Below are positions 500 to 35,217 of a stretch of 35,417 nucleotides of DNA, piece after piece (within the stretch, counting starts at the first letter, position 1; every line of letters starts with the position of its first letter). Below the pieces are notes generated by a model that saw nothing but the letters and a program-made list of their open reading frames with translations, searched no databases and was not told the DNA's origin. The position numbers and the translations under genes are program-made. This DNA is from Heterotrichella gracilis (Eukaryota; Sar; Xanthophyceae; Tribonematales; Xanthonemataceae): NCBI GenBank assembly GCA_032358255.1, contig JAULBX010027639.1, positions 1-35,417 of the forward strand. Reading direction: 5' to 3'.

Positions 500-1380
500 T
501 TTGGACCAGTGGGTGCGTCGAAAAGGTCTAGGTCAAACAGTGATTTGGCGAGCACCAGGCAGCGCCCAGTGGGTGGCACCTCACTCACACCACCCGGGGC
601 ATGCAGCAAGCGGGATGCACATCCAACCACACCACACTCCCCCTTCCCACCAACGGGTGCATGCAACCGGTGGCACTGGGCCAGGCGAATCATCCCCTTC
701 CTCACACCAGCGGGTGCGCCTCCAGGTCAAACAGTGAATTGCCAACCACCAGGCAGCACCTGATAGCCACCGACCCCATTTCCCGCACTCCACCCATAGC
801 CATGCAGCAATTCGGGTGCGCATCAACCCCGGCCACACAGATCCCTTTTCCCGCCAGCGCCAGGCGACTCAGCCTGCGCCATACACCAGCGGGTGCGCCT
901 CCAGGCCAAACAGCGAGTTGCCTTCCACCACCCTTGATGACCACCAGCGCCAACCTCCCTCACTCCACCCATGGCATGCAGCGATTGGGCTGCGCGCGCA
1001 TGCGACCGCGCCACACACTGCCTCCTCCAGCCAGCAGGTGCAACCGCCAGGGTGCAACCACTGGGCGAGGCAAATCAGCCTGCGCCCTACACCAGCGGGT
1101 GCACCTCCAGGTCAAACAGCGAGTTGCCATCCACCAGGCAGCGCCTGATGGCCGCTGGCGCCCACCTCCCTTAATAGTTGTAGTCCACCCAAAAGAGCAT
1201 GCAGCGATGGGGCTGCACATATGATTACGTGATTTCCACTTCAAAGGCCCCCCCTTCCCGCCAACTGGTGCATGCAACCAATGGGCCAGGCGAAGCAGCC
1301 TGCACCCTACGCCACCGGGTGTGCCTCCAGGTCAAACAGGGAGTTGCCGTCCACCAGGCAGCGCCTGATTGTGCCAACCT
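500..1380 (-). repeat. Five-copy tandem array of the rimO terminal-exon 3' end
   Basis: Units of about 180-215 bp start near 511, 697, 883, 1080 and 1296; the rightmost is the functional rimO exon end. Read on the minus strand, several units keep the code for [18 protein letters not shown] residues and a stop. The copy near 1080-1150 also keeps [15 protein letters not shown] followed by TAG. The copy near 883 has lost the stop, and that near 511 is the most diverged. Between units lies a second conserved block, about 60 bases of the 3' flank, containing gcatgcaacc and gccaggcga. The array gives long spurious open frames on both strands. Confidence 0.85.
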
Positions 1381-4300
1381 CCAGGGGGGCCACAGCCAAG
1401 TTCTTGGGAGGGGACAGGAACACCAGGGGGTCGATGTCTGGCGCGTCCCACTGGGTGCGCCCAATCATCTCACCGTCCTCGTTGTACCCGTCAACAAGCA
1501 CGTCAACCTGGGGCAGGGGGTGTAAAACACATCAGAGAAAAAACACCAGACAAATATGAGATGTCTCACTCATTTCAAGCGCTTTGCGGCGTGCCGTTGT
1601 ATGTGGCAGGAGCAGGAGTGGCAGGATCTGGCATGCATCCAGATCATAAGGATGGATTTGGCATGCATCCGTGGCATCACAGATCCTGGTCCGTGGATGG
1701 AGCAGTGTATCTGGCATGCATCCAGGTCATGTGGATGCAGCACTGTACACAATGTGCGCATGCATGCATGTCGGTGCCCCCTCACCTCCTTGCCTACCAT
1801 CCCCCTTGCCCACCCCTCCCCTATACGCTGCTGCAGGGACACCATCTCATCACGACGAGCCTGGCGCACATCAGGGTCAACCTGCGAGGGGCGTGTGTGT
1901 GTGTGTGTGTCAGGGATGCAGGGACAGGGCCTTCAGGAAAGGAGGTGATGTGCAGCATTTTTGTATACTCCGCCACAATTTGATATGGCAGAGCCGGAGC
2001 CTTGTTTGGATACCTATGTTTGTTCAGTTTGCCACCCTGCACCAACCCCTTGCACCCCAGCCTCCACAAACCAGCCTCTCCACACCCCACATGCTCAAGC
2101 AGCCGGTGTTCACTCCCCCTCACTGTAGGAGAAAAACCCTACCAACACCCTATCAACGCCCTAGCCACACCCAGCCAGCGCGCAAACCTTCCGCCCCCCG
2201 GCAAAACCCACACCCCTGCATGGGCACCTCCGCAGCTTTAATATCACCCTAGCCAATCCCTGCCACTGCAGATGCGTGCCCCCCACCACCTACCTGCGTG
2301 GGCATCTCCGCAGCCGGCGTCCCCTCCTCCTCACTATACACAAAGCACCCCATGCGCTCAAAGCGGAAGGACTTGACAAAGGAGACTAGGTCCTTGTGAG
2401 CCGCGGCGTCCTCGCCTGCAGGTGGGGGGTGGGAAGCACATCAGGGGGTCATGCATAGGGTTTAGGGTACAGGGTTCAGGGTTAGAATCTAGGGTAATTC
2501 CATTATGTGGTGCTGTACAGCCGGGTGCATGCACCAGTGGCTGTACCCATCCCTGCGTGTACTCCACATCAAGGGATTTGTGCAAGCTTTGTTCTTGAAT
2601 GGCGCTGGCCTGCGGAACTGTGCTGAAGGCGTTTTTTTTAGACAGATGGTACTTTGGTTTGTTGTTTTTATCCAGCACAGCCTCGGTGAAATGCTAAGCA
2701 TGACCAGTGGATGGGACACTTGCATGTCAAGTTGCTTCCCTTTGGTGCTGGGGCTTCCTTTTGGGCCCATGGCATACATCTGTAACCTGTACGTAGTTAA
2801 CGCAGTGTCAAAAGAGTACCTGCGCAGCACTTAATGTGCAGGAGTGCCTTTTGTAACCATGTGGTTTTCTTTTAATACCTGTCTTGATAAAAAAAAAATT
2901 AAAAAAATTACGTTCATGGTCTTTGATATTGTTTGTAGAAATTCCGCTATCTAATAATTTGAAAGATATTGGCTTTGTGTTTGCGAATGAAGAAGCCCAC
3001 GGCACCCATCCCCTCACCTGGGAATCCCGAAATGAACGTGGTCCTGAGCGCCAGGTCCGGGATCCTCTCCCTGAGTGTGTTGAGCAGGCGCTCCGTGTGG
3101 TCCCTTGTGGGTCTGTTCATGGCCAGTAGCGTGAGGTTGTTGATGTGCTGCAGGGGGATGTCGATGTACTTGCACACCTGCAGGGGAAATGATTAGGGTT
3201 TAGGGTTTAGGGGAAGGGGGGTCTGTTCATGGCCAGCAGCGTGAGGTTGTTGATGTGCTGCAGGGGGATGTCGATGTACTTGCACACCTGCAGGGGAATT
3301 GTGTGGATGTGGTGCAGGGGATGTTCAGAATGTTCCCAATGCACTGTAGGGGGAGTATGGCGGGTAAGCCACCAGCATGCACGCATGCAATGCTTAGTCA
3401 CGCATGTGGCTTGGCGCTGATGGCAGGTTCAAGCAGCTAACCATGCCCTGCCCCTCAAAACCTACCTTTGGGTTGTTAGCGATCTCGTCGATAAGCGCGT
3501 CGTTGAAGTAGGACGGGTACGCGTACAGGATGCGCATCCATCTCAGCCCCTCAAGCTTGCCCAGCTCGTGCATCAGCTGAGCAAGGTCCTTCCCGCCGCG
3601 CCGGTCCTGGCCGTACTGGTTGGTGTCCTGCACAGCCATTGACCCTTACTTAAACCCTAAACAAGGAGCCATTGAAATCCTAAAGAGGGATTCACACCCT
3701 GAACCCTAATAGGTCCTTCCCGTCGCGCACGGTCCTGGCCGTACTGGTTGGTGTCCTGCACAGCCAGTAACCCTTACTTAAGCCCTAAACAGGGAGCCAT
3801 TGAATCCTAAAGAAGGGTTCACACCCTGAACCCTAGATAGGTCCTTCCTGTCGCGCCGGTCCTGGCCGTACTGGTTGGTGTCCTGCACATGCGGCGTTAT
3901 CCCTCAGGGACGCGAACAGAAGCCATCAACTAGGAATGCAAGCTCCAAACCCTACACCCTTCACGGGCTAAACCACGCTGCTGGTCACCACAACCCTAGA
4001 CACATGGCGCAAACCCTACACGTTGCTTACCTCTGCAATGAGGTTGAGCTCCACCACGCCGCTGGCCACTAGGCGCTCCGCCTCCTCAAGGATGGATGCC
4101 CACGGCTTGGAGCGGAACTTGCCCCTGGGAAGAAAGGGAAGGGGTGTGTGAGAAGGGGTGGCAGGGGACGTAGTGCACAAGGGAGGCAATGCTCTTAAGC
4201 GAATTCTCATTGCTAATTCCGCTTCTTCTTTTACCAACACGCCAGTTCAAGGGCATGCTGTGCAGATTAATGCGGGTTATACTGAAGGCTAGCAGTGTTG

Positions 4301-10300: not shown

Positions 10301-12857
10301 AACGCACACCTGTTAATTTTAATTCCTGTGGCCAGGGTTAGGAGTAAATTAAAAACAATCCTGAAATCTTCACCATTGGCGCCATATTCATACTCAGTCT
10401 GTCAGATTTCAGTGAAGGATTGTGCAGACTGTGCATCATGCGTGATTGCAGCCTGTTGGCTATGGTAACCACACGAGTGCCTGGTCATGCAGCACCCACC
10501 TGAAGGAGGGGATTGCGCAGAACGTGCATGCGTGGTTGCACCCCTCAGCCACGCGCAGGTAGGCGGTGTGGCGCGGCGTCAGGCGGTGACGGTCCCACTC
10601 GGGGCGGAAGGCAACCGTGGCGCTGCCCACCTGTGGGGAGGAAAATGCCCGGCAATGATTGGACCAGGTCACACTGTGGTGGGCAACGTCATACCCTGGC
10701 CCAAAGATACTACAGTATGCAAACAGTTCACATCATGAAGATGTGCATAGAATATATGACATTGCCTGACAATTATGTATGGATAAGAAATTCGAATGAC
10801 TCATTTGATGCTCATCGCTTGGTCCAGGACCAGGACTGTATGTTCCCGTTGACGCTGTAGAAACTGCATTAATTACTGCAGCAAGCAAGTGAAGCAAGCA
10901 ACCAAACTCAGCCGGCTGCAATCGCCATTAAATTTGAAAAAAAATAAAACCGGGGTGCAACGTGCAGGTTGCTCATCAGTGATGCAGCAGTGCCAAATTA
11001 ATCAGAATTGTAAATGCCGGGCAGAGGGTCCAGTGCACAAGCCAATGCCACCCCACCCGCCCCTCCCGCCTGCATGACTAACCTGCACCCTGCTCCTCGC
11101 CGCATATGCATCTGGATCCACCTGTGCGTCAATCCCCAGGGACTGGCGCAGCGCTGAAGGCAGGCCCCCATATGACTCGAAGCCAATCACCAGGTCGACC
11201 TCCGGTAGCTGAGCTGTGGGGTGGGGAGGGGAGGGGTGTTGGTGAGAATTGGCGCATCTCTACCCAGGATATGGTGGCACCCACCCATCCACATGCAATG
11301 AATCCCTCCCGCCTGGCCCATGCATGGTGCAACATGTGCACTGTGCAGCTTGGACCACCATACATATGGTGCGCCGCCGGGTGGCATGCACACACGCGAT
11401 GCCCTATCAGTGCAGGGCCAGATGGCGATGCAAGAAATTCTTCAGCAGGTGACAGTGTGTGCAAGGCAGCCTGTAGCCACCATCCATATCACACACACCA
11501 CCACCACCACCACCACCACCACCATCACAAACAGCAGCACCACCACCACCACCCGTCTGCCAGCTCCTTGCTGTACCTCTGCTATTCAGGGTTTAAAGTT
11601 TAGGGTTTAGAGTTTAGGGCTTAGGGTTCACCTGCCAGCTCCTCGCTGTACCTCTGCTGTTTAGGGTTTAGGATCAAGGGTTCAGGGTTTAAAAGTTAGG
11701 GTTTACCTGCCAGCTCCTCGCTGTACCTCTGTGCCAGGCAGCCTGTGACCACCACCCGCTTCACAGACCCACCCTCGCCCTTCATCTGGGCAGCCTCCAT
11801 GATGGCCTGGGGGGTGGGGATTGGGAATGGGCAATGAATGGGCTGGGAATGGATGGGGACATGCAGGCGAGAACTTGGGTTGGTCTCAGCGTTGTTCTGT
11901 CCAGGGGTGTTCAAGGTGTGTGTACTGCAGGGGTCCATGGCGATTAAAAGCATGATTGTGGCCGACCGCTGGATTGCAAATTGGAGTTCCGGGGCTGGAC
12001 CCTCTTTGTCCCCTTATGCTCTTTGTGGTGTAAGGGTGCGGGTTCTACACAATCCCGGCCATACCCCATCCACGGCCTTCCACCCTCCCACCGCCACGAC
12101 TCGCCCCCCCCACACCCACCTCCAGCGATTCCTCCTTTGCATCCTCCACAAAGCCGCATGTGTTTACCACAATGGCATCTGCCTCCTCGTATTCCTCCGT
12201 GATCTCAAACCCCTGGCGGTACAGGTCGCCCAGCAGGACCTCGCCTGGGTAAGGGGAAAAGATATAGGATTTGGAATTTAACGTTTAGTGCAAAGGCAAG
12301 GGGTGAGGGCAGGGGGGTACGTTTAGGAAAGGTGTTTGCGCATGGGGCGTGGGAAGCTTGGGGTGTGTGTGTGCGGTGTGCGCTTGTGTGCCAATGCGTG
12401 GGCAGCGAGGGTTTGGTTCCCTTGCATGGACCCTGTATGCATGGGCATGTGCAGGGGCAGGTATGGCAGTGGCCAGGCAAAGTGATATGCATCCATGCAA
12501 GGGCAGGCGTGTGCGACGAGGGAGCGGGTCACGTTCTTGGTGTATATGCAAGCACTGGCATGACACGGCAGCACCTGTTGCAGCACGAGTGGCATGCCTC
12601 CCCAACGGCCCTTCAACCTAAGTTATTGTAAGTCAGCACAGCTCCCACCCACACCCAACCCCAGCGTACGCACCATCCACTGTGTTTTTTGGGCACCCCA
12701 GGGACACCATGGCCACCTTGCCCACGGAGCCAGGGGGGGCGGTGGGGGAGCCAGAGGCGGTCTTGGTGGCGGTGGTGCGGGTGGAGGGGGGTGGGCGAGG
12801 GGTGGCGCGGTGGGGCGCTGGGGCGCTGCGCACCAGTGGGGTGCGGTGGGCGCGCAT
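1307..12857 (-). CDS. rimO: RimO-type ribosomal protein uS12 methylthiotransferase, 11 exons, probably organelle-targeted
   Basis: Exons (written low..high, transcribed right to left): 12674-12857, 12120-12244, 11707-11806, 11083-11213, 10500-10630, 4031-4124, 3466-3627, 3018-3177, 2294-2415, 1786-1881, 1307-1507. Phase closes throughout and gives 501 aa. Bacterial RimO is a radical-SAM enzyme that methylthiolates an aspartate of ribosomal protein uS12. The UPF0004 domain shows three cluster cysteines: SLGCPKN (C55), NTCGF (C91) and TGCLAQRY (C126). The radical-SAM motif CNHACTFC gives C211, C215 and C218. [20 protein letters not shown] and [13 protein letters not shown] follow, and a TRAM domain occupies about 431-501. 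SLGCPKN, LTPRH and EEGTPAAE fit RimO better than MiaB or CDKAL1. I start at ATG 12857: the next 44 residues are rich in R, T, P, A and S with no acidic residue, like a plastid or mitochondrial transit peptide. The long open frame above it has no ATG in frame. Intron 5 (6,375 bp) contains a whole gene on the other strand. Untested: organelle location and an additional 5' exon. Confidence 0.88.
1893..1910. repeat. (GT)9 microsatellite
   Basis: Nine GT units lie directly upstream (minus-strand sense) of the rimO exon 10 acceptor at 1882-1883, where they read as an AC run in place of a polypyrimidine tract. Confidence 0.9.
3109..3298. repeat. 80-bp direct repeat of a rimO exon edge around a telomere-like tract
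   Basis: Positions 3109-3188 and 3219-3298 are identical except for one base (T3127/C3237). The 30-base spacer 3189-3218 contains two TTTAGGG-type units. The left copy includes the start of rimO exon 8 (3018-3177) and its acceptor; the right copy is intronic and carries a second, apparently usable acceptor. Confidence 0.92.
3585..3893. repeat. Three ~127-bp tandem copies of the rimO exon 7 5' edge
   Basis: Units start at 3585, 3712 and 3840; the third is truncated near 3893. Each contains the exon start (coding DTNQYGQDR), its acceptor and adjoining intron with CCCTAAAC and CCCTAA motifs. Only the leftmost copy continues into the rest of exon 7. The other two are intronic. Confidence 0.88.
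4125..4946. other. rimO intron segment / presumed VID27 promoter region
   Basis: No exon seen. It contains the start of rimO intron 5 on the side of exon 6 and the sequence upstream of the VID27 start. Positions about 4540-4840 are less GC-rich than surrounding DNA. No clear TATA box was found near 4947. Confidence 0.35.
4947..9857 (+). CDS. VID27: VID27/DEM-family cytoplasmic WD-like protein, 12 exons, nested in the rimO intron
   Basis: Exons: 4947-5009, 5732-5865, 6058-6274, 6525-6608, 6902-7117, 7401-7571, 7844-8009, 8310-8499, 8740-8842, 9082-9191, 9466-9639, 9803-9857 (TGA). Phase closes to 560 aa. It resembles the yeast Vid27 (vacuolar import and degradation) and plant DEM families, whose molecular role is poorly defined. 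An N-terminal segment (about 22-140: [29 protein letters not shown]) precedes an acidic linker. The C-terminal VID27 propeller-like domain (about 240-545) shows [52 protein letters not shown] and [14 protein letters not shown]. The tail is acidic ([10 protein letters not shown]). The first exon encodes MGATQST, a plausible N-myristoylation site as in plant DEM; it is joined by phase and position only, so it is the least certain exon. A TGTAA at 10299 could be the polyadenylation signal, as in Chlamydomonas. The whole gene lies antisense within rimO intron 5. Its terminal exon and 3' flank are duplicated downstream. Confidence 0.88.
9803..10150 (+). repeat. Duplicated terminal exon and 3' flank of VID27
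   Basis: The terminal exon (from 9803) and flank to about 9935 recur, diverged, at about 10062-10150. Both parts contain a tgtgtaca-like start, a g-rich gaggaagg/gaaaggg block, then cagacacagcag (9904 and 10128) followed by a gggttgac-like segment. The second copy no longer encodes the VID27 tail. Confidence 0.6.
10411..10450 (-). repeat. Diverged echo of the rimO exon 5 3' edge
   Basis: This intronic segment resembles the exon edge at 10501-10540, sharing tgaagga, a ttgcgcag/ttgtgcag block and catgcgtg(a/g)ttgca. It is older looking than the other echoes and has no telomere-like spacer that I can see. Confidence 0.45.
11493..11553. repeat. (CAC)n microsatellite tracts
   Basis: Two CAC/ACC runs (about 11497-11523 and 11538-11552) are separated by a short interruption. 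They lie in the rimO intron between exons 3 and 4. The histidine-rich open frames here are low-complexity artefacts. Confidence 0.85.
11556..11735. repeat. Three ~75-bp units of the rimO exon 3 3' edge with telomere-like spacers
   Basis: The exon end and donor at 11705-11731 recur at about 11631-11660 and 11556-11582. Spacers at 11585-11628 and 11660-11702 are runs of degenerate TTTAGGG units. The two intronic copies keep the end of the exon; the nearer one also keeps a donor-like acct (minus-strand aggt). Confidence 0.88.
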
Positions 12858-13819: not shown

Positions 13820-16800
13820 ATGCAGCGCACGCCGCAACTAGGGCACCGCCTGGGCGGCGGCGTGAGGGTCCCAGCAACGGCTGGCGGCGGTGTGAGGGCG
13901 GCCAGGGGGGGTGTGGTGCGCGTGGTTGGGCGCGCTGCAGGGGGTAGCAGCACCACCACCCCCCCACTCCCCCTGGGGAGGTCACCCGCCCCTGACGCAG
14001 CGCAGTTTGCCAAGCGGGCAGCAGACTTCCAGGCACTCCTGCAGGTGCGGGTGCTTGAGGCGTGCATGCTACCCTTGACGCCGGCACCGCACTGCACCAC
14101 TCACTTACCCACAGCGCCCGAGGCAACCACCACAAATAGGGAGCACCACCCAGCCTATTCCCACTCTACCATGCGCCCAGCCGTAGCCATAGACAACACC
14201 AGGCATGGGGAATGCACCAACCCTGTAATACGGACTAACGGTTGACCCCTTCCCTCCCCTGTACCCCCCTACCCTCCTGTAACCTCCTGTAACCCAGCCT
14301 CGCAATCCCTCTCAGCTTCTCCTGTGGGCCTTGGCAATACCCTCACTAAGGGTCTGCGCCCCGTGGCGATCCCTGTACCCTCTACCTCCTACCCTCCTAT
14401 TACCCTCCTACTCGCCCCAGCCCTGTAATACCTCCCCTCTCCACACACCCCGCAGGAGAGCTTCCAGATTGCAGTGTCCAGTGGGCCACGTGGCGCACGC
14501 AGAGCAGCCCAGGCCGCCCAGGCGGTGGCGGCGGTGGGGGCAGACTACCTGAGGGAGGCGCGCAGCGGTGCGTGTAGGGTCTAGGGTTTAAGGGTAGAGG
14601 GGATTTGAGCGGACTGCCTGGTGGAGGCGCGCAGGGGTGAGGGGGTTGAGGTCTAGAAATTGGGGTCAAGGGTTTGGGGTGCCTGATCCAGGCGCGCAGC
14701 AGTATGGGCTCTCTGCTCTGGCAACCACATGGTAGGGGTAAGCTCGATCTGGAACAACCGTTGTACCATGCCTGTGCACAACAACCAGCGTGCCATTCCC
14801 CCATCACTACCTTCCCCAATTTTCCCACCCCTGCCCCGCAACACTCCCCTCCTGCCTGCCGCGCTCACCCCCCACCCCTCACCCACACAGGCACCCCACC
14901 ACCACCACCCGTCATCCTGCGCCGCCTGTTTGAGCGCCTGGGTGCCACCTACATCAAGCTGGGCCAGTTTGTTGCATCGTCACCCACGCTTTTCCCAGCG
15001 GATTACGTGCTGGAGTTTCAAAAGTGCCTAGACAGGTGGGTGCAGGGTGTACAGTTCACAGGTGGTGTGCATACTTGATGCGCTGCACGCCTGCAGTTTT
15101 TCAGGACATGGCGTGATATGTATGCCCATTTGACACCGCAATTCACATGCATCCCATGCATTTTTTCCACCCATCTGCTTTCATCCAACGCCCATTCCAA
15201 CTCAACACATCCTTTCACCTAACTCACATTCCTGGGAGTCAATACTTCATATCGTATTATTAAATGTGCCTTGCCTTTGTGCTGCACTGTGAATTTACTT
15301 CCACCCTGCCCTACTGTCCTGCCCTGAAGTTCATACTCAAGCCTTTCATTTTCCTGTGTTAATAACTCAATTTCCCCCTTTCTCCCCCCTTGCAGCACCG
15401 AGCCTGTCCCCTGGGAGACCATCCGCCGCACCCTCCAGTCCGAGATGACCGCCCCCCTCGACTCCATTTTCTCCTACATTGATCCCACCCCCCTGGCTAG
15501 CGCATCCATCGCCCAGGTGCACGCGGCTGTGCTCAGGGGGAGTAACAAGGAGGTGGTGGTCAAGGTGTTGAAGCCAGGTGAGGGCTGGGATAAGGGGGCG
15601 GGAGAGGTGGCTCCGTTGGGTGGGGAGGGGTGTCAGGTGGGAGGACGAAGGGGTGACCATTGGAGCCTGTAAGGCATGCTAAGTCACCATGACCGCTGCC
15701 AAAAGATGTCCGGAACCATCCCCTCACTCCCTCGTGTAAGCAATATTCCTCCTCACCCCAAGGCATGCTCACCTGGCTCAATGCTGGGATGCAGTTTCTA
15801 CTTGCTTGTACTTACCCCCTCGTGTTATATATACGGCCATGGAGGTGGCCGTGGAGGTGTGACGGCCACCTCCATCACCACCATCAACCCCCACCCCAGG
15901 CGTTGAGGATGTGCTCATTTCCGACCTCAACTTCCTCCTCCTCTCCGCGAAATTCCTGGAATTCCTGGCCCCCGACCTGGCCCGCACATCCCTGGCTGCG
16001 GTGGTGGGCGACATCCGGGGATCCATGCTGGAGGAGGTGGATTTTGAGGAAGAGGCGCGGCACCTAGCGCAGTTTGATGCGTATCTGGATGTGAGTGGGG
16101 CGCGCGCGGTGGCCACCTGCCCATATGTATACAGGCAGCTCAGCACAAAAAGGTGCGAGTTAGTGGTGGCTGTGGAGGTGCCCTACACGTGCAATATCCT
16201 AATATCCTAAGCATTCTAAACAGAAATTGTACTGGATTTTCCGGCTGTATTTTCCATGTTTTTTGTAAATGACAGCGTATAAAATGTTTGACGCGTATTT
16301 GGATGTAAGTGGGGCGCGCGCGGTGGCCACCTGCCCCTATGTCTACGGGCAGTTCAGCACAAAAAGGTGGATTTGGTGGGTATGGTGTTGTGTGTGGTGT
16401 GTGGTGTGGTGAGGTGGGGGGATGGATTGGCCCCTGTTGTATCTCAAGTACCCGAAAGTAGTTTAGAATTCCTTTTGAGGAAATTCAAAGCCAATAAGTG
16501 TACTGTTGGTATCCTGCAGCAATCACAAGAGTCAGGGGACCAGATGTGATCAATCGGCCCTCATTATACTGAGCCCATGAAACCCAGAACCCTGGCCCTG
16601 TCAAATGTTGAACCTTAAGCTAAATTCCCCTGTCCTTCCTAGGGTTCTGGTACTCGAGCGCCTGCGCGGTGCGGCCCTCACAGACCTTGCAGCAATCACG
16701 CGGGTCACGTCAGCAGACCCCGAGGCGGTGTTGATAGCTGCGCTCAACACATGGTTCGGGTCGCTCATCGGCTGCGAGACATTTCACGCGGACGTGCACG

Positions 16801-20297: not shown

Positions 20298-23200
20298 ATG
20301 GCTGTCACTCAGGGAGCGGTATCACAGATGCTGCTGGGCGAAAACACCGACCCAGTGGCCCTCAAGGTACCCTAAACCCCCCTCGCATACCCATCGGCAA
20401 GCTCTCCCCTAGGCTGGCATTACCACACCCTATTGTGCCCATTATGTTGCCTTTGTGCCTGGTAGCCAGCGGTGTGGTCTCCATGTGTGTTTTGGCTGTG
20501 TCCTTGACATGCACGTCTAGCAGTGTATCCACAACCCCGTTGTCACATGCCCTCCTCCCGTGACGCTCAAACCACCTGTCACCAACTGCTTGTGCTCAAT
20601 CTGTTGACCTGGCTCCTGCCAGCGGGTGTCTTGTGGCAGTGTATGTCCTGGTATTCCTAGGTGTATATGCTGGTTGGCGGACCTGACCAGGTGCACTTGA
20701 TGATTGTCGCTCCATCCATAGGAAGATATCGATCTCCCTCACTCTCCCAAACCCAAACCCAAACCCTCCACCCCCAGGGGATTGTGCACGCCTCGCTCTA
20801 CCGCCCCCCTTTTTGTCCCTCATTAATCCCTGCCACCCTTGCCCGCCGCGCACCCCCCCCCCCCCTTTCCCCTCCATCCCATACCCCTGCAGGTTGTCAA
20901 GATGGATACCACCCTAAACCCTAAACCCTAAACCCCGCCACCCAACCCTGCAGGTCAACAAGCTTGAGCCCAGCCAGGGTGGGACAACACCCAAACCCTA
21001 AACCCTTGACTCAAACCTTAGACCCCATTACCCACCCCTGCAGATTGTCAAGCTTGAACCCAGCCAGGGTGGACGCGTGAAGGGCCTGTTATCCGACAAC
21101 AGCCAGACCCTCAACGCCCTGTTCACCAGCCAGACCAAGGAGTCCATGGTGGGGGTGGCCAAGGGGGACGTCATACGCGTGGTGGACTGGGTGTGCAACG
21201 AGGTGGGTGACGGGGTTGGTGGAGGCCGCCACACCTTGGAATGGTGCATGGTATGGTGTCACCACACAGGCAAAATACCACACGCAGTTTGTGGTTATCA
21301 CGTGCGCTTTGTCAGTGTTGCCGGGTGAGCAGTCAGTCATGGCAGGGCTTGCGCCAACAATCCTGACTTGGCAGGCGTTGTGGCATTTCTGGGTATGAAA
21401 TGCTTACAACTTCCTAGTTACCTGGGTCACCAAACTTCGCGTTTGTGTTTGAATGTGTGCACACATCCCCAGCACTACACCACACCACTCCGCCTTCAAG
21501 TGGGGGTGTGCAGGCTTGCTGCTCAGTTGGTGGCACTGCGGGACCTCGAAACTACTGCGTGGTGTCCCTACAGACAGTACCCGGACAAGCCTTGGCTCTG
21601 GACTGGAATGAGGCGTGCCCACGCCTGGTAATGTGGGTGAAATGCACTTGCTTGCTTACATCTTCCTCCACCTTTCTGCAGGTGAACGGGCACAAGGTGT
21701 GCATGGTGTCTGGGGTGGAGCGGATGGCAGGGGGTGCGCAAGGGGCGGTGGTGGTGAAGAAGGAGGAGGGGGGGGAGGAAGCGCCGGCGGTGGTTGTGAA
21801 GCAGGAGCAGGTGACAGCCATGCAGGTGGGGAGGAGGACTGGTGGCAACTCAGTAAATCCTAAACCCTGAGTGGTGGCCATTTAGAAAATTCCAAGATTT
21901 TGTGCTTCTCATGTCCTAGGGTTTAGGGTTTGTTCATCAGGAGCCGATCGCACGGGGTTGCCATAAATATATACGTACGTGAAGCAGGATCAGGGAGGAG
22001 GGTGTGACGGCCATGCAGGTAGGGAGGAGTAGGGTGGCCGTGGCATGTACACGTGCGCCTGGTTGAGGAGTGGGTGCAATCTAAAAAATGGCTGAAAAGT
22101 AAATATGCTGGAGAGTTTAAAGGTTTGTGCATTAAAGTGGATCTGGGGGGTTTGCCGATATTATTATCTCAGACAGTATGGATTATTTGTGAGTATTCTC
22201 CAGAGGTAGTGACCCACCTTTGAGTGCCGAGTGTCGGTTTCAAATAAGGCATTGTGGACCCACGCCTCCTTACTAAGGAGTCCTTCCCCAGCAACCCCCA
22301 CTCACCCCCACACCCTCCCCCACACACAGACTGACACCCCCACCGCGGTCAAGTCCAGCGGCACCCCTCTGGCAGTCAAGAAGGAGCCAACCAGCGGCTT
22401 CAAGACACCGGGAGCTGGGTCCATGGCATCAAACCAGTGCGCACCCTCCCCTTTTTTCCCCTCCCTCCCCTCACAAATCCTGTGCTTGCGGCACGCATGG
22501 CCACCTACATGTAGCTCCTATGTCCCCACCACGCACCCAACCCAGACATATACAGAGCCTGTGATTGCGCCTGCACACACCCTCTAAAGGACGCCCAGGT
22601 TAGGGGTTAGGGTTGAGGATTCCCACCACCCAACCCTAAACCCTTTACCCTCCCCATCCCACACGCCCACACACCTTGCACCGTCATGTCTATCCACACG
22701 CCATTCATTCACACACGCAAATCCTTGCCACCCTTTCCACCCACAAGCACCACGCCACCCCGCCTCCTCTCAACCCCCACCCCCCACCCCCTCCAGGTCA
22801 AGCACCACCGGCCTCCAGGCCCCCGCCCCCTCCCCCCCCTCGGTGCGCAAGCCCGCGCAACCCGTAGCCGCCCTCAACCCCTACGCGGCGTCGTGGACCA
22901 TTTGCTGCCGGGTCGCCTCCAAGAGCAGCCTGTTCACCTCCACTGACAAGGGGTCGGGCCAGCCAATCAACAGGTTCAATGTGGAGCTGGTGGACGAGGA
23001 GGTGAGGGTTTTGGCATTTCAATGTTTTAGGTTCAGGGTTTAAAGTGTAGGGTTTAGGGTTGTCCATTGGACCATTTGTTGCCGGGTGACTTTCAAGAGC
23101 AGCCTGTTCATCTCCGCTGACAAGGGGTCGGGCCAGCCCATCAACAGGTTCAATGTGGAGCTGGTGCACGAGGAGGTGGGGATTGCAGGGTTTGGGGACT

Positions 23201-26200
23201 TGAGATCTGCTGTTAAGAGTTCAGAGTCTGGAGTGAAGGCTGCAAGAGTGTGCGATTTAGGGTTGGCCATTCAAGGAATTTGGATGAGAATTGAGCTTAG
23301 AGATCAGAGTGTAGGTGGATGATCTGCTAACCCTGCCCCCCAGAGCCCTGCTCCCCAAGGCACCCCCATCGAGGCCAGTGCTTGGCCAGCACCGCAGACA
23401 CGCACTACTCAACAAACCCTAAACCTCAGTGGCTAGGACCGTCCATGAACCTCTACAGCTGATACCCACTGTAACTCTGGTCCCCTCCCGCAGGGCACCC
23501 CCATCGAGGCCACCTTCTGGCGCGGCGCAGCAGACAAGCACTACTCCAGCCTGGAGGAAGGGGGGGTGTATTATTTCAGCAAGGGGAAGGTCAAGCTGGC
23601 CAACAGGAACTTCTCAACCGTCAGGAACGACTACAACATCACCTTTGACGACAACACGGGGTGAGGGGGAAACCCTAGGAAAAACCTAGCAAAACCCTAG
23701 CAAAACCCACAACGTTTTGGTCATACAGCTTCACTCAACTCTGAGGAACACACGACTACAACATCACCTTTGCGACAACACAGGCTGGGGAGCAAACCCT
23801 AGCAAAACCCTCATTGGGATCTAGGGATAAGGGTTGCACACCCACAAGCCTTCACTAAAATCCCTCCTCCGCCCCCACAGGACCGAGATCTCCCCCGCCC
23901 CAGTCTCCCCCGCCACCGCCAAGATGCAGGCCCGCCTGGACCCAGTGCCGATCGCCAACCTTTCCTCCTTCATCGGCAAGAAGATGAACGTCGACCTCCT
24001 ATGCATGGTCACCGCGGTTTCACCCCTGGCCCAGATCAAGCGCAAAGTGGACAACACTGAGGTGGTGAAGAGGGAGCTCACCGTCACCGACCAGAGGTGT
24101 GTGTAAATTATGTCATAACATATCATGGAAATGAAAAATAGGAATAATCTGTGTTATCTTCTACTATTCTTCGTTTTGTTACTGATATGTATTTACAACA
24201 AGGCTGGGATATTTTGTACAACTACAATTATTACACCGACTCAAGCTTACATTCTTTTCTGTTTATTTACATTTATTTATTCCCCGCAGCTTGAAGAGTG
24301 TGCAGCTGACCGTGTGGGGCCGCGCGGCTGAGGAGGAGGGTGTACAGCTCGAGGCAATGGACAGCCCAGTCCTTGCCGTCACCGCATGCAGGGTGACAGA
24401 CTTCAACGGTGAGAAGGGGTCTTGCTTCCTTTTGAAACAGGGAACTTAGCACCCTTTTGACCATACAAGGGAACTTAGCTGCCTGTGAATATACCGGTGT
24501 TCGTTGTGTTTTTTGTGTTTCTTACCCCGAGGTGCCACTGAGAAGGAGGGTGTTCAGCTTGAGGCCATGAGCACACCAGTCACTGCATGCAGGGTGGGAG
24601 AATACAACGGTGAGGGTCTGAAAGTACTTACGATGTTACTAAACATCGCGTTTGGACCTGGCATGGTGGTATTATCTGCGCACTATGCATCCCCCTCCCC
24701 CTCCTCTTCCCCCCACCCCCCCCCGTGTCCACATTCCCCTCCACTTTGATCCACCTTTGCCAACAACCCCGACACCCCAAACCTTCAACCCAAAACCCCG
24801 CAACTAAAACCTGTAACCCTAATCGCCCTCCCACTCTCGCAGGCGTGTCTGTTTCCGCCCTCGCCCGCTCCACCTTCGCCACTAACCCCGACACCCTAAC
24901 CCTCAAACCGAAAACCCCCTAAACCAAAACCCTAAACCCCATTTCACTGCTGCAGGTGTGTCTGTATCCGCCCTCTCCCGCTCCACCTACGCCATCAACC
25001 CCGACACCCCAGCAGGGAACGCGATCAAGGAGTGGTGGGAGAGCGAGGGGAGGAACGCGGAGACTACCCATGCAGGGGAGGGACTGGCCTCGGCGCAAAA
25101 GTGAGTGCTGGAATAGGGAGAGAAATCATTAGCGTGTTAAACAGGAAGAAGGCTTGCAAGCGTCTACAAAGAACAATGTTTGTATAATGTTTACTCAAAA
25201 GCGGGGCATACAAAGGATAACCAAGGCTGCGTTTGGACGCAACCCTCTTATACAGCCAACCATTGGTTTGTTAGTTAGTTACATGCATTTCAGTAACACC
25301 ACAGCCAACCACGCAACTCCCTACCTAACAAACGTCTGGCTGTGCGCATGCGCTGTTGCATACAAGTACCTGCATCTCATTGTTATCCTACATCATTCCA
25401 CCGCCCACATAACCCTAAACCCTAACCCCCATTTTCCTCCAGGTCTGGGGGTTCCGCCCGCCCCCTGTCCACCCTGGAATACCTGCACAATCCCCCGAGT
25501 GTAATGTATTTCAAACGTGAAAAAATCAAAAAACATCTGAATAAGTCACCCTTTGTCACCTACCACCCCGTACCCACCGCCCGTACCCACCTCCCCTCCA
25601 GGTCAGGTGGTTCCGCCCGCCCCATGTCCACCCTGGAATCCCTGCACAAGCCCCCGGGATCCCTGCCCCCCGTGGATGCCAAGCCTGAGTACCACAACAT
25701 CACACTCACCCTGCAGCACTTCCCCGCTGATCAGACCTTCTACTACATGGCTAACCCAGAGAACAACAGGAAGGTGCGCAGCTGGAGAAGGATACAATTT
25801 ATCTTAAAACCCTTTTCTCGATTCATCTCGATGCATGATGACGTAAAGTCCTCAACCTGGAGAACAGCAGGAATGCAGAAATGAGAGTTGAGTCGCAATT
25901 GCATTTTAAAACAAATTAATTGTCATGTCATTTTCAAACAATGACATGATGACAATAATGACGTAATATCCTTGTATTACAAGCCGTTTCCCCTTCCCCC
26001 AGGTTGTTGAGCAAGGGGGTTCCTACTACTGCGAGTACGATGGCCGCACCTACCCCACCATGAGCCGCAGATACGTGGTGCGCGCAAGGGCGGTGGACTT
26101 CACAGGGGAGGCGTTCGTGAACATGTTCAACGCAGAGGTAAGGGGATGGGGTTTAGGGTGTGGGGTGTGGGGTTTTAGGTGCTTGGCGCCAAGGGGTGGA

Positions 26201-27232
26201 TTTCACAGGGGAGGCGTACGTGAACATGTTCAACACGGAGGTAAGGGTTCAGGGTGTAGGCTAGGGTTTAGGGTGTAGGGTATAGGAGTTTAGGGAAAGG
26301 GTTTAGGGTTTACAGGGTGTGACGCCAAGGCGGTGGACTTCACAGGGGAGGCGTACGTAATCATGTTCAACATGGGAGGGGGGAGGGGAGCTGGGGGGGC
26401 AATGGTCCATTGCTTATTGCGCGCTAACTTTGGGTGCTTGGCTGAAGTGCCTGGTGTATTGTACCGTGTATTGTGTTACGAGGTGGGGCATGTGGATGGT
26501 AGCACCACGGGTGGCATGTGGTGCATGCGCTGTGCTGCAAAGTGTAGCGCTGCAGGGAAGGAATGCCAGCCAAGGCAGCCGCTGCCAGTCCCCCTTTGCC
26601 CCCGGATTCTGACACTCTCCACCCTCCTCCCATTCCTCAGGCTGAGCAGGTGTTTGGCATGACCGCGGACGAGCTGTCCCCCCTGAAGGAGGACGCGGGG
26701 AAGGCTGCTGAGCTGGCTGAGGTGCTGCAGCGGGCGCAGTTCTCGGACTGGGCGGCAACAGTCACCTCAAAGACAACGTGAGTCACTGCCCCGGTAGTTG
26801 CATAGGAAAATACTATGTAAGCAGTGCTGCGGCGGGTGCAATCTTCTGGCTGGGAAGCAACTGTCTTGAGAGGCAGCGTGAGTGGGTCAGAAGAAAACTG
26901 AATAAAACCCAGAGCTTCTGTAGAAGCCGGCTTTGATGTGCCCTGTGGGCAGCGCTTGGCAGTAACACATCCACATAGCAATTGTCACCTCAAAGACAGC
27001 ATAAGTAGATTTCATTTAAGTATTTAGGAAACAATGAAAATATGAACAGCACAAAAAATGAAAGCCCAGTGCTCCTCCAATAAAATACCTCACCAACCAC
27101 CCTGTCTCCCCCTGCAGCGAGTACAACGGCGAGCTGCGGCAGAGGTTCGCAATCGCCCGCCTGGCCCCGCTGGACTATGCCAAGGAGAGCAGGCAGCTCC
27201 TGGCGCACATTGCACGGGCAATGGCGGCCTGA
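20298..27232 (+). CDS. RPA1: Replication protein A large subunit (RPA70/RPA1), 13 exons, with a degenerate zinc ribbon
   Basis: Exons: 20298-20366, 21044-21202, 21682-21825, 22330-22436, 22797-23001, 23494-23660, 23881-24096, 24290-24408, 24956-25100, 25602-25773, 26003-26137, 26641-26777, 27118-27232 (TGA). Phase closes to 629 aa, close to the usual ~616. RPA1 is the main single-stranded-DNA-binding subunit of the RPA trimer in nuclear replication, repair and recombination. Order: DBD-F (about 1-95), a flexible linker (about 96-178) with three VKxE motifs, DBD-A (about 185-290; FSKGKVKLANRNFSTV contains the aromatic stacking residue), DBD-B (about 300-420; LTVWGRAAEEEG) and DBD-C (about 455-625). 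In DBD-C the usual four zinc cysteines are mostly replaced: N495, no second cysteine, C511, D514. The donor of exon 3 could instead be 21810, also in frame. A CAG at 20280-20282 just before the start may end a 5'-UTR intron. Nearly every exon has partial copies in the adjacent introns. Confidence 0.92.
20893..21075 (+). repeat. Three copies of the RPA1 exon 2 5' edge with acceptors
   Basis: CCCTGCAG followed by a gt(t/c)-(g/a)-aag-type exon start occurs at about 20885-20912 and 20946-20981 and, functionally, at 21036-21075. Two copies share gcttga(g/a)cccagccagggtgg. Telomeric CCCTAAA runs lie between them (20912-20935 and 20992-21005). Only the last copy continues into exon 2. Confidence 0.85.
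21980..22030 (+). repeat. Echo of the RPA1 exon 3 3' edge
   Basis: A segment with gtgaagcagga, gaggaggg and gtgac(g/a)gccatgcaggt recalls 21796-21828. Its extension to gccatgcag supports 21825 rather than 21810 as the true exon 3 end. TTTAGGG lies at 21918-21930 between the copies. Confidence 0.6.
23059..23177 (+). repeat. Near-complete copy of the 3' half of RPA1 exon 5
   Basis: Nearly 120 bases duplicate 22894-23001 and still encode WTICCRV, KSSLF, DKGSGQPINRFNVELV and HEE in an open frame, followed by a GTGGG donor-like site. The spacer (23005-23060) is a degenerate TTTAGGG run. Confidence 0.9.
23341..23792 (+). repeat. Echoes on both sides of RPA1 exon 6
   Basis: The exon 6 5' edge (23488-23553) is echoed upstream at 23341-23408 (ggcacccccatcgaggcca, gcagaca, cactactc). 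The 3' edge (about 23622-23663) is echoed downstream at 23736-23792 (cgactacaacatcaccttt, gacaacac). Confidence 0.8.
24527..24900 (+). repeat. Echoes of the RPA1 exon 8 3' edge and exon 9 5' edge in one intron
   Basis: Positions 24527-24612 copy 24330-24412 (gagaaggagggtgttcag, atgagcac-cagtc, actgcatgcagggtg) with donor. Positions 24838-24900 copy 24953-25010 (caggcgtgtctgtttccgcc onward) with acceptor. A degenerate CCCTAAA run lies between the exon 9 copies (24895-24940). Confidence 0.85.
25436..25500 (+). repeat. Echo of the RPA1 exon 10 5' edge
   Basis: CTCCAGGTC-ggggttccgcccgcccc, tgtccaccctggaat and cctgcaca match 25595-25655 with several differences, including the acceptor. CCCTAAACCCTAA precedes it at about 25411-25424. 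An older echo may also lie at about 25835-25875. Confidence 0.85.
26185..26372 (+). repeat. Two echoes of the RPA1 exon 11 3' edge
   Basis: The exon end at 26085-26140 recurs at about 26190-26243 and 26322-26372 (ggtggacttcacaggggaggcgt onward). TTTAGGG-rich spacers lie at 26143-26185 and 26245-26318. The first echo still carries GAGGTAAGG; the second has diverged past the exon end. Confidence 0.88.
26824..27004 (+). repeat. Echoes of the RPA1 exon 12 3' edge
   Basis: Positions 26826-26885 resemble 26720-26785 (gtgctgc(a/g)gcgggtgca onward to agcgtgagt), and 26985-27004 resembles 26760-26778 (gtcacctcaaagaca). Both are intronic and diverged. Confidence 0.65.
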
Positions 27233-27337
27233 GGGGGCGTGTGCGCGCTGCTGGGTGCTGCTTCTTGACACAGCCGCGAGTGGGTGTGGGGGCCAAGTGG
27301 CGGCTTGGATGCTGCTGCGGCTAGCCTGAGCCATGGC

Positions 27338-27405
27338 CCTGGATGGACTATGCCAAGGCGAGCAGGCAGCTGCTGGCCCACATCGCATGGGCAATGCCAG
27401 CCTGA
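27338..27405 (+). repeat. Copy of the RPA1 terminal coding segment in the 3' flank
   Basis: The segment duplicates 27169-27232 with about ten changes and still reads as DYAKASRQLLAHIAWAMPA followed by a stop. It lies beyond the functional stop. Confidence 0.88.
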
Positions 27406-27535
27406 GGGGTGCGCGCTGCTGGGCGCTGCATCTGGGACCAATGACCAAGCCTAAACCCTAAGCAGTTCTGGCGGGCGTGGGGGTGCGGGCAGCGACATGC
27501 CCATTGATACGGCCAGTATGAACCATGGCCCTCGA

Positions 27536-27640
27536 TGGATCGTGCGAATTGGCAGAAGGGCAACTGGTCTAGGGTTTAGGGTTTAGGGTTTAGGGTTTAG
27601 TGTGGTTTGGATCGTGCGAATTGGCAGAAGGGCAACTGGT
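27536..27640. repeat. 33-bp perfect direct repeat flanking a TTTAGGG tract
   Basis: Positions 27536-27568 and 27608-27640 are identical. The 39-base interval is a run of four TTTAGGG-type units plus a few bases. To the right, 27640-27690 continues as a third diverged copy of the RPA1 terminal segment (ctggcgcaca-cgcccgggca, then gcggcctgagggg). Confidence 0.95.
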
Positions 27641-27699
27641 TGCTGGCGCACACCGCCCGGGCACTGACGGGCCCTTGCGGCCTGAGGGGTGCGTGATAC

Positions 27700-29255: not shown

Positions 29256-31212
29256 TCACTCCTGTGCCTTGATTGGCAGTGACATGGTGAGGAAGGAGAT
29301 GTATGCCGACCAGAACACCCCGATGAGGTTTGCATACAGGATGCGGTAGTCTGCGGGGATGAAGCGGAAGGAGATGACGTTTGCCAGTGGCCACAGCAGG
29401 TAGTTGGCGGCCAGGGTGGGGACCAGCTTGGCCTGCAGGGGAGGGGAGGGAAATAATCAGGCACAGGGAATATAAAACAAGGTAGATTACCCTGAACCCT
29501 AGATGACGGTTGCAAGTGGCCACAGCAGGTGATTGGCAGCCAGGGTGGGGATGGAGAAGGAACAAGTTGAATATTCTAGGTGGTGAAGATGCGGGTTCCT
29601 GAAGTATGAGGGCATGTACTGCAGCAGCTAGTTGCTACATATACTTTGCGACTAGGGTAGGGATGAGCTTCGCATGCATGCAAGGAAAGGTCCCTTGCAG
29701 GGGAAGGTCCTCCCAAATGGAAATGTTATAACCACTCTGTGTACACCCACCCTGAAACCTGGCATCACCCCCTCCCACCCCCTCCCCTCCTCCACCGCCC
29801 CCCACACCCACCTGGATGAATGGTATGATGAGCTCCGGGCTCCCCTCACTGAACTTGAGCCACGCAAAGAACACGCAGGTGACGATCGGGGTGAGGAGTA
29901 GCTGGTCAAGCGCCAGCTTGGAAATGACAGCCTGGAGGGGAGACAAAAAGGGATGTTATAAGTAGGAAGAACGCAGAGGTGAGAAGTAAAACATGGCAGG
30001 GTTTTGCTAAGACTTTGGTCGACCAACAGAGGTACATGGCAGGGTTTTGCTAAGACTTTGGATCCAGCCCTCGGTGGCCCACAAACCAACAGAGGTACAA
30101 GTAACCCATTTGTTCAACTTCCCATTCTACCGTATCCATTTTACCCACAAATTCTCCCTTTGTTCTCTTTTCCAAAACGGATTATATCTGCACCTTTGCA
30201 GTGAATGCTTTTGCAATTGTATTCCCTAAGTCTCATGCAATCCCATTTCTACCCATATTTCCACCCACCTTGGCGCTCGTCGACCTCTTGGGGTGCACAT
30301 ACTTGTCCAGCGCTCGGTGCCAGTAATGCCCCAGCGGACCACCCACCCACAGCGCAAAGCACGCCAGGCGGATGGTGCGCGTGATGGCAAAGCTCTGCCC
30401 CCCCGCAGTCTGCGCGATTATGTCCCCGAGTATCGTACCCACCACCGCAGTGGCGGTTTTGGTGGTCAGCGGGTGCTTGTCCATGCTGCGGGTGTAGGCG
30501 CGCCACCAGGATGTGGGGAGGCCTTGGAAGGTGGAGGGGGCGGCAGCGGGGGTTGGCCAGGGGTGTGCGTCTGCGGAGGTGCACACCGCAGCAGGAGGGG
30601 TGGTGCGGGATGATTCGGAGTGGCGGGGGGAGCCTGCGAGGGAAGAGGGGAGGTGTTAAAGGAGCTGTCTAGGATGGTAGGAGCTGTGGAATGCTCTAGC
30701 GCATGGTGGTGGTGCCCTGTACAGAGCCATGCATTTTTGCGTTAGCAGCCTGGAGCCTGAACCCCAACCACTCAACACTCAGCAAAATGGAGCCTGTAAC
30801 CTAACCCCTCAACAGTCAGCGACCTAGGGCCTAAACCATAAACCTTAAACATTTATAGACGCTAAAGCGGCATGGAGCCGACACCATAAACAGTCAGCGA
30901 CATGGAATCCGACCATCGCCCTCTATGCATGCGATACCCTTCCTCACCTGGAGCCCCGCCCGTGGTTTGGTGCAGCGGCCTGCGGGTCGCCATGAGTGCT
31001 GTTCCCCCGGGGGTGAGGAAGCGCGATGAGGTGGCGGAGGGGGAGCGAGGCCTGGGGATGAGAGTGGTGGCTGCGGGGGTGGAGGGCTGCGGCCGTAGCG
31101 TTGTGGCAAACGCGCGCACTACCTGCACCACTGGTGGCTGTAGTACCGGTGCTAGGTTAGAGAGCGTGTGCTGGATGCCGGGGGTTCTGGTGAGGTTCCA
31201 CAGCGACTGCAT
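29256..31212 (-). CDS. Mpv17/PMP22-family membrane protein, 4 exons, probably mitochondrial
   Basis: Exons (low..high, transcribed right to left): 30948-31212, 30269-30633, 29812-29931, 29256-29432 (stop 29256-29258). Phase closes to 308 aa. Members are four-helix proteins of the mitochondrial inner membrane, peroxisome or plastid, implicated in channel activity and mtDNA maintenance; biochemical function is debated. The family signature begins WWRAYTRSMDKHPLTTK and continues GTILGDIIAQ (helix 1), RLACFALWVGGPLGHYWH (helix 2), LALDQLLLTPIVTCVFF (helix 3), then LLWPLANVISFRFIP and YRILYANLIGVFWSAYISF (helix 4). About 130 residues precede the domain. The first 90 (MQSLWNLTRT, VVRAFATTLRPQ) are basic and S/T/P-rich without acidic residues, so mitochondrial import is likely but inferred. 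The start is the first ATG of the open exon. It is convergent with RPA1 and divergent from the gene at the right edge. Two partial copies of its last exon lie in the last intron. Confidence 0.9.
29499..29675 (-). repeat. Two echoes of the Mpv17-family last exon 5' edge
   Basis: Positions 29500-29552 resemble 29374-29422 (gatgacg-ttgc, agtggccacagcagg, ttggc, gccagggtgggga). Positions about 29624-29675 are a more diverged copy, still reading AKLIPTLVAKYM on the minus strand. Confidence 0.7.
29991..30099. repeat. 28-bp direct repeat in an Mpv17-family intron
   Basis: Positions 29991-30018 and 30034-30061 are identical, and the short flanking block accaacagaggtaca recurs at 30022-30036 and 30085-30099. 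There is no telomere-like spacer here, so it is a plain tandem duplication. Confidence 0.85.
30745..30905. repeat. Degenerate tandem repeat in the first Mpv17-family intron
   Basis: Units with (t/c)ggagcc(t/g)-, aacc-, a(g/c)tcagcgacat or related blocks recur about every 50-60 bases. Confidence 0.55.
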
Positions 31213-33401: not shown

Positions 33402-33623
33402 TTGGCCAGTTGCCTTGCAAGGCTTGAACCACTGGCATTGCTGGGCACAGGGTTTCTGCCGTTTCCCGCTAGGCGGTGCCACCGTTCCACCCCCAGCCCG
33501 AGCACTTGGGCGAATGCGAGCACCCCCAAAAGTGGTGGTAACAGGAGGCACAACCACCTCGCCTGTCCACCACACTCTTCAATCTCCTCCCGCAATGCAC
33601 CCGACGCACATGACTGGGTAGTG

Positions 33624-35217
33624 ATGGACCCCTCACAATGGCCGGATTGGCCCGATGGGGCGACCACCTTCAAGGGCTTAAATGCCACCATTGACGCGCC
33701 ACTTGACGAACTGCTGCAGCTCCTGTGGACCAACGATGCCTTCCTGGTGCGTGATGGGACTTTACCCTACGCTGGGGTGTGGGTGAGGGTGGATGCTGGG
33801 TTCTGGGCAGGGATGGTGCCACCACGCCTATCGTACGACACGAGGCTATGCAAGCGGTGCTGGGGTAATGTGGGCCTCGGATTCTCCGTTGGGAGGATTG
33901 GGCAGGCAACTGCTGGTGCAAACTGTGCGAAGGTTAAGGTCAGGGATGGAACCCGCTGTACCTTGAATGGGGTGTACATCCTGTGTTTTTGCGACAGGGT
34001 GACAATATGCATGCATAAGCGACCATTGCAGCGATCGATGTCGTGACGGGTGCACGGCACTCACTATTGCCCAACGACGGTCTGAAGTGGTGTGCTATAT
34101 AGACATTGGCTTGCCAGTTCCGGTAAGGTTGCTTCCCTGTTTGAGTTGTCGTGCCAAACCTTTGCCTTTGCTTTTGGTTGTGTTTGTACCCTACACTATG
34201 GGTTACAAGTCTTGCCAAGCTCGCTGCCCTGTTCGAGTGTCATGACCAGCTAGTGTTGAGGTCGTGCAGCGTATTCTTGCCTGCAGCCCACTTTGGTCTG
34301 CCCCCTGCCTGTGCCCCTCCAGTAAGTGCAGCAAGACGAGCACTGCTGCCCAGGGTATAGGGTTGAATCGTGGCAAAGGGTGGGAGCCCTCCAAAGAATA
34401 TGGAACTACACTTTCTTGTGCATCAAATTCCCATCCAAACCAGCCGCCCCAAACGCTCTGGCTTGCATGCCGGGGATCGAGAACCTGGGTGACCCAGGAC
34501 CTGCTATCCCTAGGGTTTATGCGAGGACTGCAGGCTCCTCACTTGTAGTACGCTAGCCTGGCCGTCCACACCTCTCACCCTTATCTCTTCATACCCAGCG
34601 CAACCTGCGGGCCTCCCAGGGGCTTCAGAAAACGCCGCGTCCTCCCTCTCTCCCCTACCTCCCACCCCAACCCTTACCCTCAACCCTCCCTATCCCGGTC
34701 CTTCATGTGTTTAACATACAATTTCTCCATCCCCAGCGCGACCTGCGGGCGTCCCAGGGGCTGCGCAACGTGCGCGATGGGGCGTGGGCGGACACGGTTG
34801 AGGCTGCGCTGGCATCAGGCCCCGACACAGGCGGTGCCAAGGAGGGGAAGGGGAACAGGGGAAACGGGGAGGCAACCATCCAGGCGGGCAAGTGCCGGCT
34901 GGTGGCGTTTGATGGGTCGGCAATGGGCATGAAGGTGAGGCGCCATGGCAGACCCTAAACCAAGCCATGGCAGACATTGTATAGGCCTAGAGTTTAGGGT
35001 GTAGGGTTTTAGGGTCGAGGGTCTGCAATGGGCAAAGAGGTGATGCCCCATGTGCCTGGGAAGGCAGATATTGCATGAACTAAGTTTTAGAGTTTAGGGT
35101 TTAGGGTATGCCTTACACCCTGGTATGGAGGTTCCTCCAATGCCTTGGCACAAACCCCGTAGGTCTGGGTTTCAGGGTTTCACACGCTACCGCTGTGTGC
35201 CCCGCATCCCTGTTCAG
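33624..35217 (+). CDS. Partial gene, probable VASt-domain (lipid-transfer-like) protein, runs off the right edge
   Basis: Three exons are supported by splice sites and phase: about 33624-33746 (donor GTGCG), 34737-34934 (donor GTGAG) and 35176-35217 (donor GTAAC). All junctions are phase 0. The joined frame reads KGLNATIDAPLDELLQLL, TNDAFL, RDLRASQGLRNVRDGAW, a glycine- and lysine-rich insert, GKCRLVAFDG, then GFTRYRCVPRIPVQ. This order resembles the start of a VASt domain (VAD1 analogue of StAR-related lipid transfer), found with GRAM domains in sterol or lipid transfer proteins at membrane contacts. The domain call rests on pattern resemblance only. The 5' end is unknown: the frame is open upstream to 33402 and may include earlier exons or a different start. 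The 3' part is beyond the window. A partial copy of exon 2's 5' edge lies at 34594-34628, and an echo of its 3' edge at 35022-35041. Confidence 0.42.
34594..34628 (+). repeat. Echo of the VASt-gene exon 2 5' edge
   Basis: CCCAGCGCAACCTGCGGGC onward matches 34732-34766 (cccagcgcgacctgcgggc) including the acceptor, with a few substitutions. The copy then diverges after about 35 bases. Confidence 0.88.

Follow-up and report, generated by a model that had tools for sequence, protein, structure and literature searches.

Introns can be gained by tandem duplication of an exon segment that carries AGGT, and the introner elements of algae are known introns with flanks resembling target duplications. 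Tandem duplications are reportedly also treated by Vaughn and Bennetzen (2014) and Schiml (2016), both cited in the work on staggered breaks that is taken up next. In mouse cells, end joining at breaks whose 3′ overhangs measure 46 nt yields mainly tandem duplications, as described in passages of PMC5730883. Short interstitial telomeric sequences at mammalian double-strand breaks, studied by Nergadze and colleagues, are accompanied by duplications at 6 of 130 insertions in rodents and 4 of 25 in primates according to passages of PMC2246262, and a passage of PMC8226300 describes TTTAGGG as the ancestral telomere repeat in green algae. Here we analyze a contig of 35,417 nucleotides from the xanthophycean alga Heterotrichella gracilis (JAULBX010027639.1, contig C512 of a 68.5-Mb, 903-contig assembly; hereafter "the window" in its full length), which shows a pronounced and regular pattern: the ends of exons recur as copies in the neighboring intron, always in direct orientation. 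The copied tract typically stops just beyond the splice site, and telomere repeats often fill the space between the copies. These copied exon edges are referred to below as echoes.

Direct pairs were collected by self-comparison of the window and of a sample of 20 preset 10-kb stretches (L009-L028, 200 kb), using a fixed score threshold of 44, masking telomere words prior to alignment and removing redundancy. The sample stretches were chosen by position, not content, on contigs listed by a telomere-repeat search, which brings a mild bias. Exons (280 in window and sample) were called with a purpose-written coding-periodicity gene finder that makes errors, some of them at the echoes themselves. 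At equal score, 78 direct pairs were found versus 0 inverted pairs in a minus-strand search; 75 of the 78 lie within 600 bp (25 in the window, 50 in the sample), and only 3 have a spacer over 600 bp. Patch copying from elsewhere was rejected on these counts, since the lack of inverted pairs and the closeness of the copies argue against patching in random orientation, while direct-only, local copies fit break fill-in, slippage or tandem duplication.

A spacer, mostly of tens to hundreds of bases, separates the copies in 43 of the 50 sample pairs, among which 29 straddle a predicted exon edge, 7 otherwise touch exons, 3 are intron-only and 4 are intergenic. Under one common edge rule for data and null, 40,000 random placements yielded 4826 edge, 6097 wholly exonic, 10540 intron and 18537 intergenic cases, i.e., about 0.46 edge cases per intron-only case versus the observed 29 to 3, in agreement with the concentration at exon-intron junctions proposed in a first-pass annotation of the window. 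With abutting pairs included, exons hold one copy in 31 of the 50 sample pairs and both copies in 9, and the rest are intron-only (5) or intergenic (5). These pairs are not independent: grouped by hand, they form 32 exon-touching families and 9 others, many of them supplied by L011, L017, L022 and L023, and one exon-touching pair (L015:5238) is a repeat within coding sequence. Young spaced pairs (92% identity or more) touch exons in 8 of 8 sample and 4 of 5 window cases, three of the window four being one family. Simulated detection was 0.59 for two drifting intron copies and 0.94 for one drifting copy, a bias too small to explain the shortage of intron-only pairs. An echo is carried by 31 of 177 predicted introns in the sample and 15 of 45 in the window, some of these introns being exon-caller errors at echoes.

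Within the window, the 25 non-redundant direct pairs were hand-grouped into 17 exon-edge or stop-codon families and one purely 3′-flank family (27536/27608), with copies graded in identity from 72 to 100%. The first-pass annotation had counted at least twenty such edges across all six genes: 17 families reach the threshold, and twenty is attained only by adding weaker pairs below it, such as ABC1K 14540/14609 (score 37) and VID27 8801/8897 (score 35). Since the latter is all that VID27 shows, "all six genes" is too strong. The telomeric spacers quoted there are present, although 14575-14675 holds degenerate units only. A duplicated edge was also sought at 17985-18120, where nothing was found (score 10). 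The features are as follows, with genes labeled by the domains of their predicted proteins.

505..1369, minus strand: RimO-type gene, 3′-end family; diverged copies (70-85%) of the last coding exon in the 3′ flank, no telomere words
3109..3301, minus strand: RimO-type acceptor edge; 3109-3191 and 3219-3301, 97.6% identical, telomeric spacer 3192-3218
3584..3889, minus strand: RimO-type acceptor edge; tandem array of period 128 with telomere-like stretches
11557..11731, minus strand: RimO-type donor edge; three copies of period 75, spacers degenerate telomeric
14540..14690, plus strand: ABC1 kinase donor edge; weak pair 14540/14609 (score 37, below threshold), degenerate telomere-like spacer
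16072..16379, plus strand: ABC1 kinase donor edge; 16072-16166 and 16286-16379, no exact telomere words in the spacer
20911..21072, plus strand: RPA1 acceptor edge; 20940-20982 and 21030-21072, telomeric spacer and upstream telomeric array
21803..22038, plus strand: RPA1 donor edge; 21803-21846 and 21996-22038
22894..23184, plus strand: RPA1 donor edge; copies of 111-117 bp, 91% identity, telomeric spacer
23351..23546, plus strand: RPA1 acceptor edge; 23351-23410 and 23485-23546
23627..23790, plus strand: RPA1 donor edge; 23627-23666 and 23752-23790, spacer AAACCCTAGC
24328..24614, plus strand: RPA1 donor edge; 24328-24413 and 24538-24614, spacer without telomere words, exon end at 24408 from translation
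24750..25011, plus strand: RPA1 acceptor edge; three copies, period about 113-119, degenerate telomeric spacers
25436..25656, plus strand: RPA1 acceptor edge; 25436-25497 and 25595-25656, non-telomeric spacer
26080..26375, plus strand: RPA1 donor edge; three copies, telomere-like spacers
27162..27433, plus strand: RPA1 stop-codon region; 27162-27265 and 27334-27433, non-telomeric spacer
27536..27640, plus strand: RPA1 3′ flank, not an exon edge; two identical 33-bp copies flanking about five telomere units
29372..29551, minus strand: Mpv17-like acceptor edge; 29373-29422 and 29502-29551
34583..34762, plus strand: acceptor edge of a gene without a name; 34583-34624 and 34721-34762

The 44 edge-straddling pairs of window and sample vary widely in tract length, with a median exon part of 51 nt and a median intron part of 7.5 nt (interquartile range 4.75-14); the intron-part median is 7 nt with telomeric and 8 nt with other spacers. 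Uniform placement would give an intron-part median of 25 nt and 34% of pairs at 16 nt or less, a range in which 36 of the 44 fall. One wide exception proved to come from a mistake of the exon caller: the true end of the exon at 24290 is 24408, where the joined protein reads through, so that its intron part is 5 nt and not 74. Similarly, the 16072 pair, called "inside" an exon, really straddles an edge at 16152. Masking may trim tracts at telomeric spacers, which cannot account for the other half of the pairs. The most unexpected result is that the same rule describes donor and acceptor sides. The one shared DNA feature noticed at tract ends is a G-rich strand running out of the exon, and no motif was seen at the exon-side tract end. 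The copies had been said always to include the splice site or stop codon. Of the 56 spaced pairs in window and sample that touch exons, 44 do so; another 11 are confined to the interior of a predicted exon and 1 covers a short exon completely, and these 12 exceptions stem partly from exon-caller errors.

TTTAGGG is very likely the chromosome-end repeat of this genome, because contigs C70 and C140 start with CCCTAAA runs; C626 encodes, split into two pieces, a telomerase RNA-binding domain that scores above cut-off. Three perfect units in a row occur at 406 and 428 genome places (overlapping counts, some at contig ends), the reversed pattern at 0, and short arrays of the repeat are also present at internal sites. 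The window contains 41 TTTAGGG words versus 4.4 expected, a number reached in 0 of 100 shuffles. Across the 200-kb sample, AGGGTTT/AAACCCT is 2.7 times commoner than TTTAGGG (203 versus 74), and lone or decayed units are therefore unevenly phased.

The first-pass annotation was to count as refuted if telomere-like units were no more frequent between copies than elsewhere in introns. Among spacers of 10-260 bp, and with at least two telomere words required of a telomeric spacer, 15 of 38 in the sample and 15 of 22 in the window were telomeric. The corresponding proportions were 6.5% and 9.6% for equal-length intron intervals outside duplications, and 10.5% and 20.8% for intervals beside unduplicated exon edges, so the annotation passed this test. 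Fewer than two telomere words occur in the spacers of 21 of the 44 edge-straddling pairs, whose tract geometry is the same. Perfect telomere arrays were examined across the genome in two sets, of 28 and then, with criteria noted beforehand, of 20; neighboring arrays (L005 and L006) were each counted, and the short loci restrict the gene finder. Direct duplications flank 10 of the 28 and 10 of the 20 arrays, i.e., 20 of 48 pooled versus 5% of 2000 random positions, and such flanked arrays recur across the sampled genome. At L037, L040 and L041, the arrays are flush with the copies on either side (0-1 nt apart), and these copies measure 25-34 bp. A predicted exon edge is no more than 60 bp away for 14 of the 28 arrays in the first set and for 18 of 48 pooled, versus a null of 17%. 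In 15 of these 18 edge-near arrays, the TTTAGGG strand points away from the exon (two-sided p 0.008), as expected if telomerase extends an outward 3′ end; among telomere words in general, the outward strand bias is strong at acceptors and weak at donors.

We consider it about an even chance (roughly 0.5) that this pattern reflects repeated repair of staggered breaks at exon ends with fill-in, often of an outward end extended by telomerase, and from the sequences we infer the following course. One nick would fall about 3-16 nt outside the splice site and another, on the opposite strand, about 20-110 nt inside the exon. The protruding ends would then be filled in and joined, so that the tract between the nicks, consisting of exon end and splice site, would be present twice. 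In about 40% of cases, the outward-pointing 3′ end would first be extended by telomerase, giving a (TTTAGGG)n filler. The copy joined to the exon would stay functional, whereas the other copy and the filler would decay into new intron, and introns would lengthen from their ends. Repeated events at one edge, some through plain tandem duplication, would produce multi-copy arrays, a scenario that the instability of interstitial telomere tracts described in part of PMC6410037 would fit. At L047:544-774, one exon edge is followed by several successive echoes with telomere repeats after each. By eye, the newest copy lies nearest the exon in 5 of 8 multi-copy families, which are too few for a claim.

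The ingredients of this course, telomere insertion at breaks and tandem duplication from staggered breaks, are already known; the placement at splice edges is apparently new, as no published description was found in a limited search of the open-access literature, and the relevant passages of PMC8226300 and PMC12633428 do not describe exon-edge duplications. The present case resembles the mammalian insertions in its short internal telomere arrays, some with target duplication, for which telomerase has been proposed, but differs in the share of arrays with duplications (20 of 48) and in a splice-edge placement absent from the passages of PMC2246262. As in the staggered-break duplications of PMC5730883, the copies are direct, local and tens of bases long; they differ in being separated by long, often telomeric fillers, where duplications of that kind have adjacent copies with little or no filler, and in tracts that end at splice sites.

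Several observations weigh against the course proposed here. No flanking duplication is detectable at 28 of the 48 arrays. The closeness of arrays to exon edges was not repeated in the second set (4 of 20 versus a null of 17%) and carries little weight as a separate claim. Window donors show mixed strand, with no outward bias within 40 nt, and the bias at acceptors could be due to selection that keeps intron ends rich in pyrimidines. A telomere word also lies beyond the outer copy (within 60 nt) in 17 of 23 telomeric cases, as expected if the motif came first, and in many events the telomere tract may predate the duplication. The course offers no source for the non-telomeric fillers. No relative or allele without a duplication was found, and one region searched for a second genome copy gave none. 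For telomeric insertion at staggered breaks with fill-in as first proposed, the flanked and flush arrays, the edge placement and the telomerase domain speak in favor, although not every case has the telomeric insert (21 of 44 are non-telomeric).

The alternative that survives best, which we nonetheless regard as doubtful, is that breaks fall evenly across exons and that only insertions whose tract extends past the splice site survive selection, with no targeting of splice sites. The scarcity of intron-only (3) and intergenic (4) cases among the 43 spaced sample pairs would follow if breaks favor exons, and short intron parts would then form the tail of a distribution centered on exons. This requires an exon preference that is itself unexplained, and the intron part has little spread, with 36 of 44 not exceeding 16 nt. 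In effect, selection on evenly spread breaks is a version of staggered-break repair that differs only in where the breaks fall, and is not separable here from targeting of the edges.

A rather unlikely reading is that units with a telomere-like tract already in place at the intron start underwent ordinary tandem duplication or slippage, the tract being old and not inserted. The telomere words beyond the outer copy and the instability of such tracts (part of PMC6410037) favor this possibility, which was raised earlier and holds for some arrays: 3584-3889, 11557-11731 and 24750-25009 are period repeats. Outside telomere words, however, the sequences following the inner and outer copies are alike in just 1 of the 23 cases with telomeric spacers and 4 of the 21 with other spacers, even though the tracts are 72-100% identical; such resemblance is rare, and most cases are therefore not simple period duplications. 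Plain tandem duplication for all cases was rejected on this count (5 of 44). The three flush arrays also oppose it, and it leaves unexplained why tracts end just past the splice site.

A more ambitious form of staggered-break repair, which we put forward only as speculation, couples breakage to splicing: tract ends would trace the splice-site footprint on the nascent transcript (e.g., an RNA-DNA hybrid bounded by splicing factors), and telomerase would heal the outward 3′ end. A telomere tract beside an exon would raise the odds of the next break, so that introns would grow by a splice-site-guided, telomere-laced and self-feeding mutation. The pattern bears on how introns lengthen and gain spare splice sites, and break points aligned with splice sites would be a new clue that gene structure or splicing guides DNA breakage. 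If relatives confirm the pattern, it would constitute a readable record of intron growth tagged by telomere repeats, a natural system for counting telomerase-assisted break repair and a source of decoy splice sites.

It is improbable that telomere-like words are kept near edges because they serve as signals for splicing, in the form of G-runs downstream of donors and a pyrimidine-rich C-strand upstream of acceptors, with separate, ordinary duplications. Telomere words do peak 10-60 nt outside exons, and the C-strand orientation on the sense strand dominates at acceptors; yet duplication spacers are about four to seven times richer in them than other introns or the neighborhood of unduplicated edges, and duplications flank 20 of 48 perfect arrays.

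A mobile or introner-like element with telomeric ends, duplicating its target and making or enlarging introns, is very improbable. The inserts do lie between target-duplication-like flanks, as in the introns made by algal introners, but genome searches with two non-telomeric spacers found each of them at a single place, leaving this earlier suggestion unsupported; telomeric spacers have only the telomere motif in common, tract lengths are widely variable, and among 222 predicted introns no case of matching ends in register was seen. Intron birth by duplication of an exon-internal AGGT was also rejected: it shares with the present case duplications that involve splice sites, but the copies here lie at one edge of an existing intron, and the end similarity seen in 12 of the 222 predicted introns, none in the needed register, was read as tandem arrays or echo-called exons. 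An assembly artefact, suggested by a contig that ends in 75 G, is scarcely credible for copies that are diverged by graded amounts (72-100%) and recur over many contigs.

Five window genes were rebuilt from predicted exons, which when joined read through to the end. The predicted proteins carry the Pfam domains RPA1, VID27, ABC1 kinase and Mpv17/PMP22, and the fifth combines UPF0004, radical SAM and TRAM domains, an arrangement that we take to be RimO-type. Its gene (1307-12857, minus strand) appears to be single, with a 6.4-kb intron that houses the entire VID27 gene (4947-9860, plus strand). Elsewhere in the genome, a rubisco small subunit is encoded, whose top matches of solved structure are probably those of Chlamydomonas and Chlorella; it gives only a rough placement, taken to point to a chlorophyte green alga. 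The final run of 75 G in the window (35343-35417) is probably a sequencing or assembly artefact.

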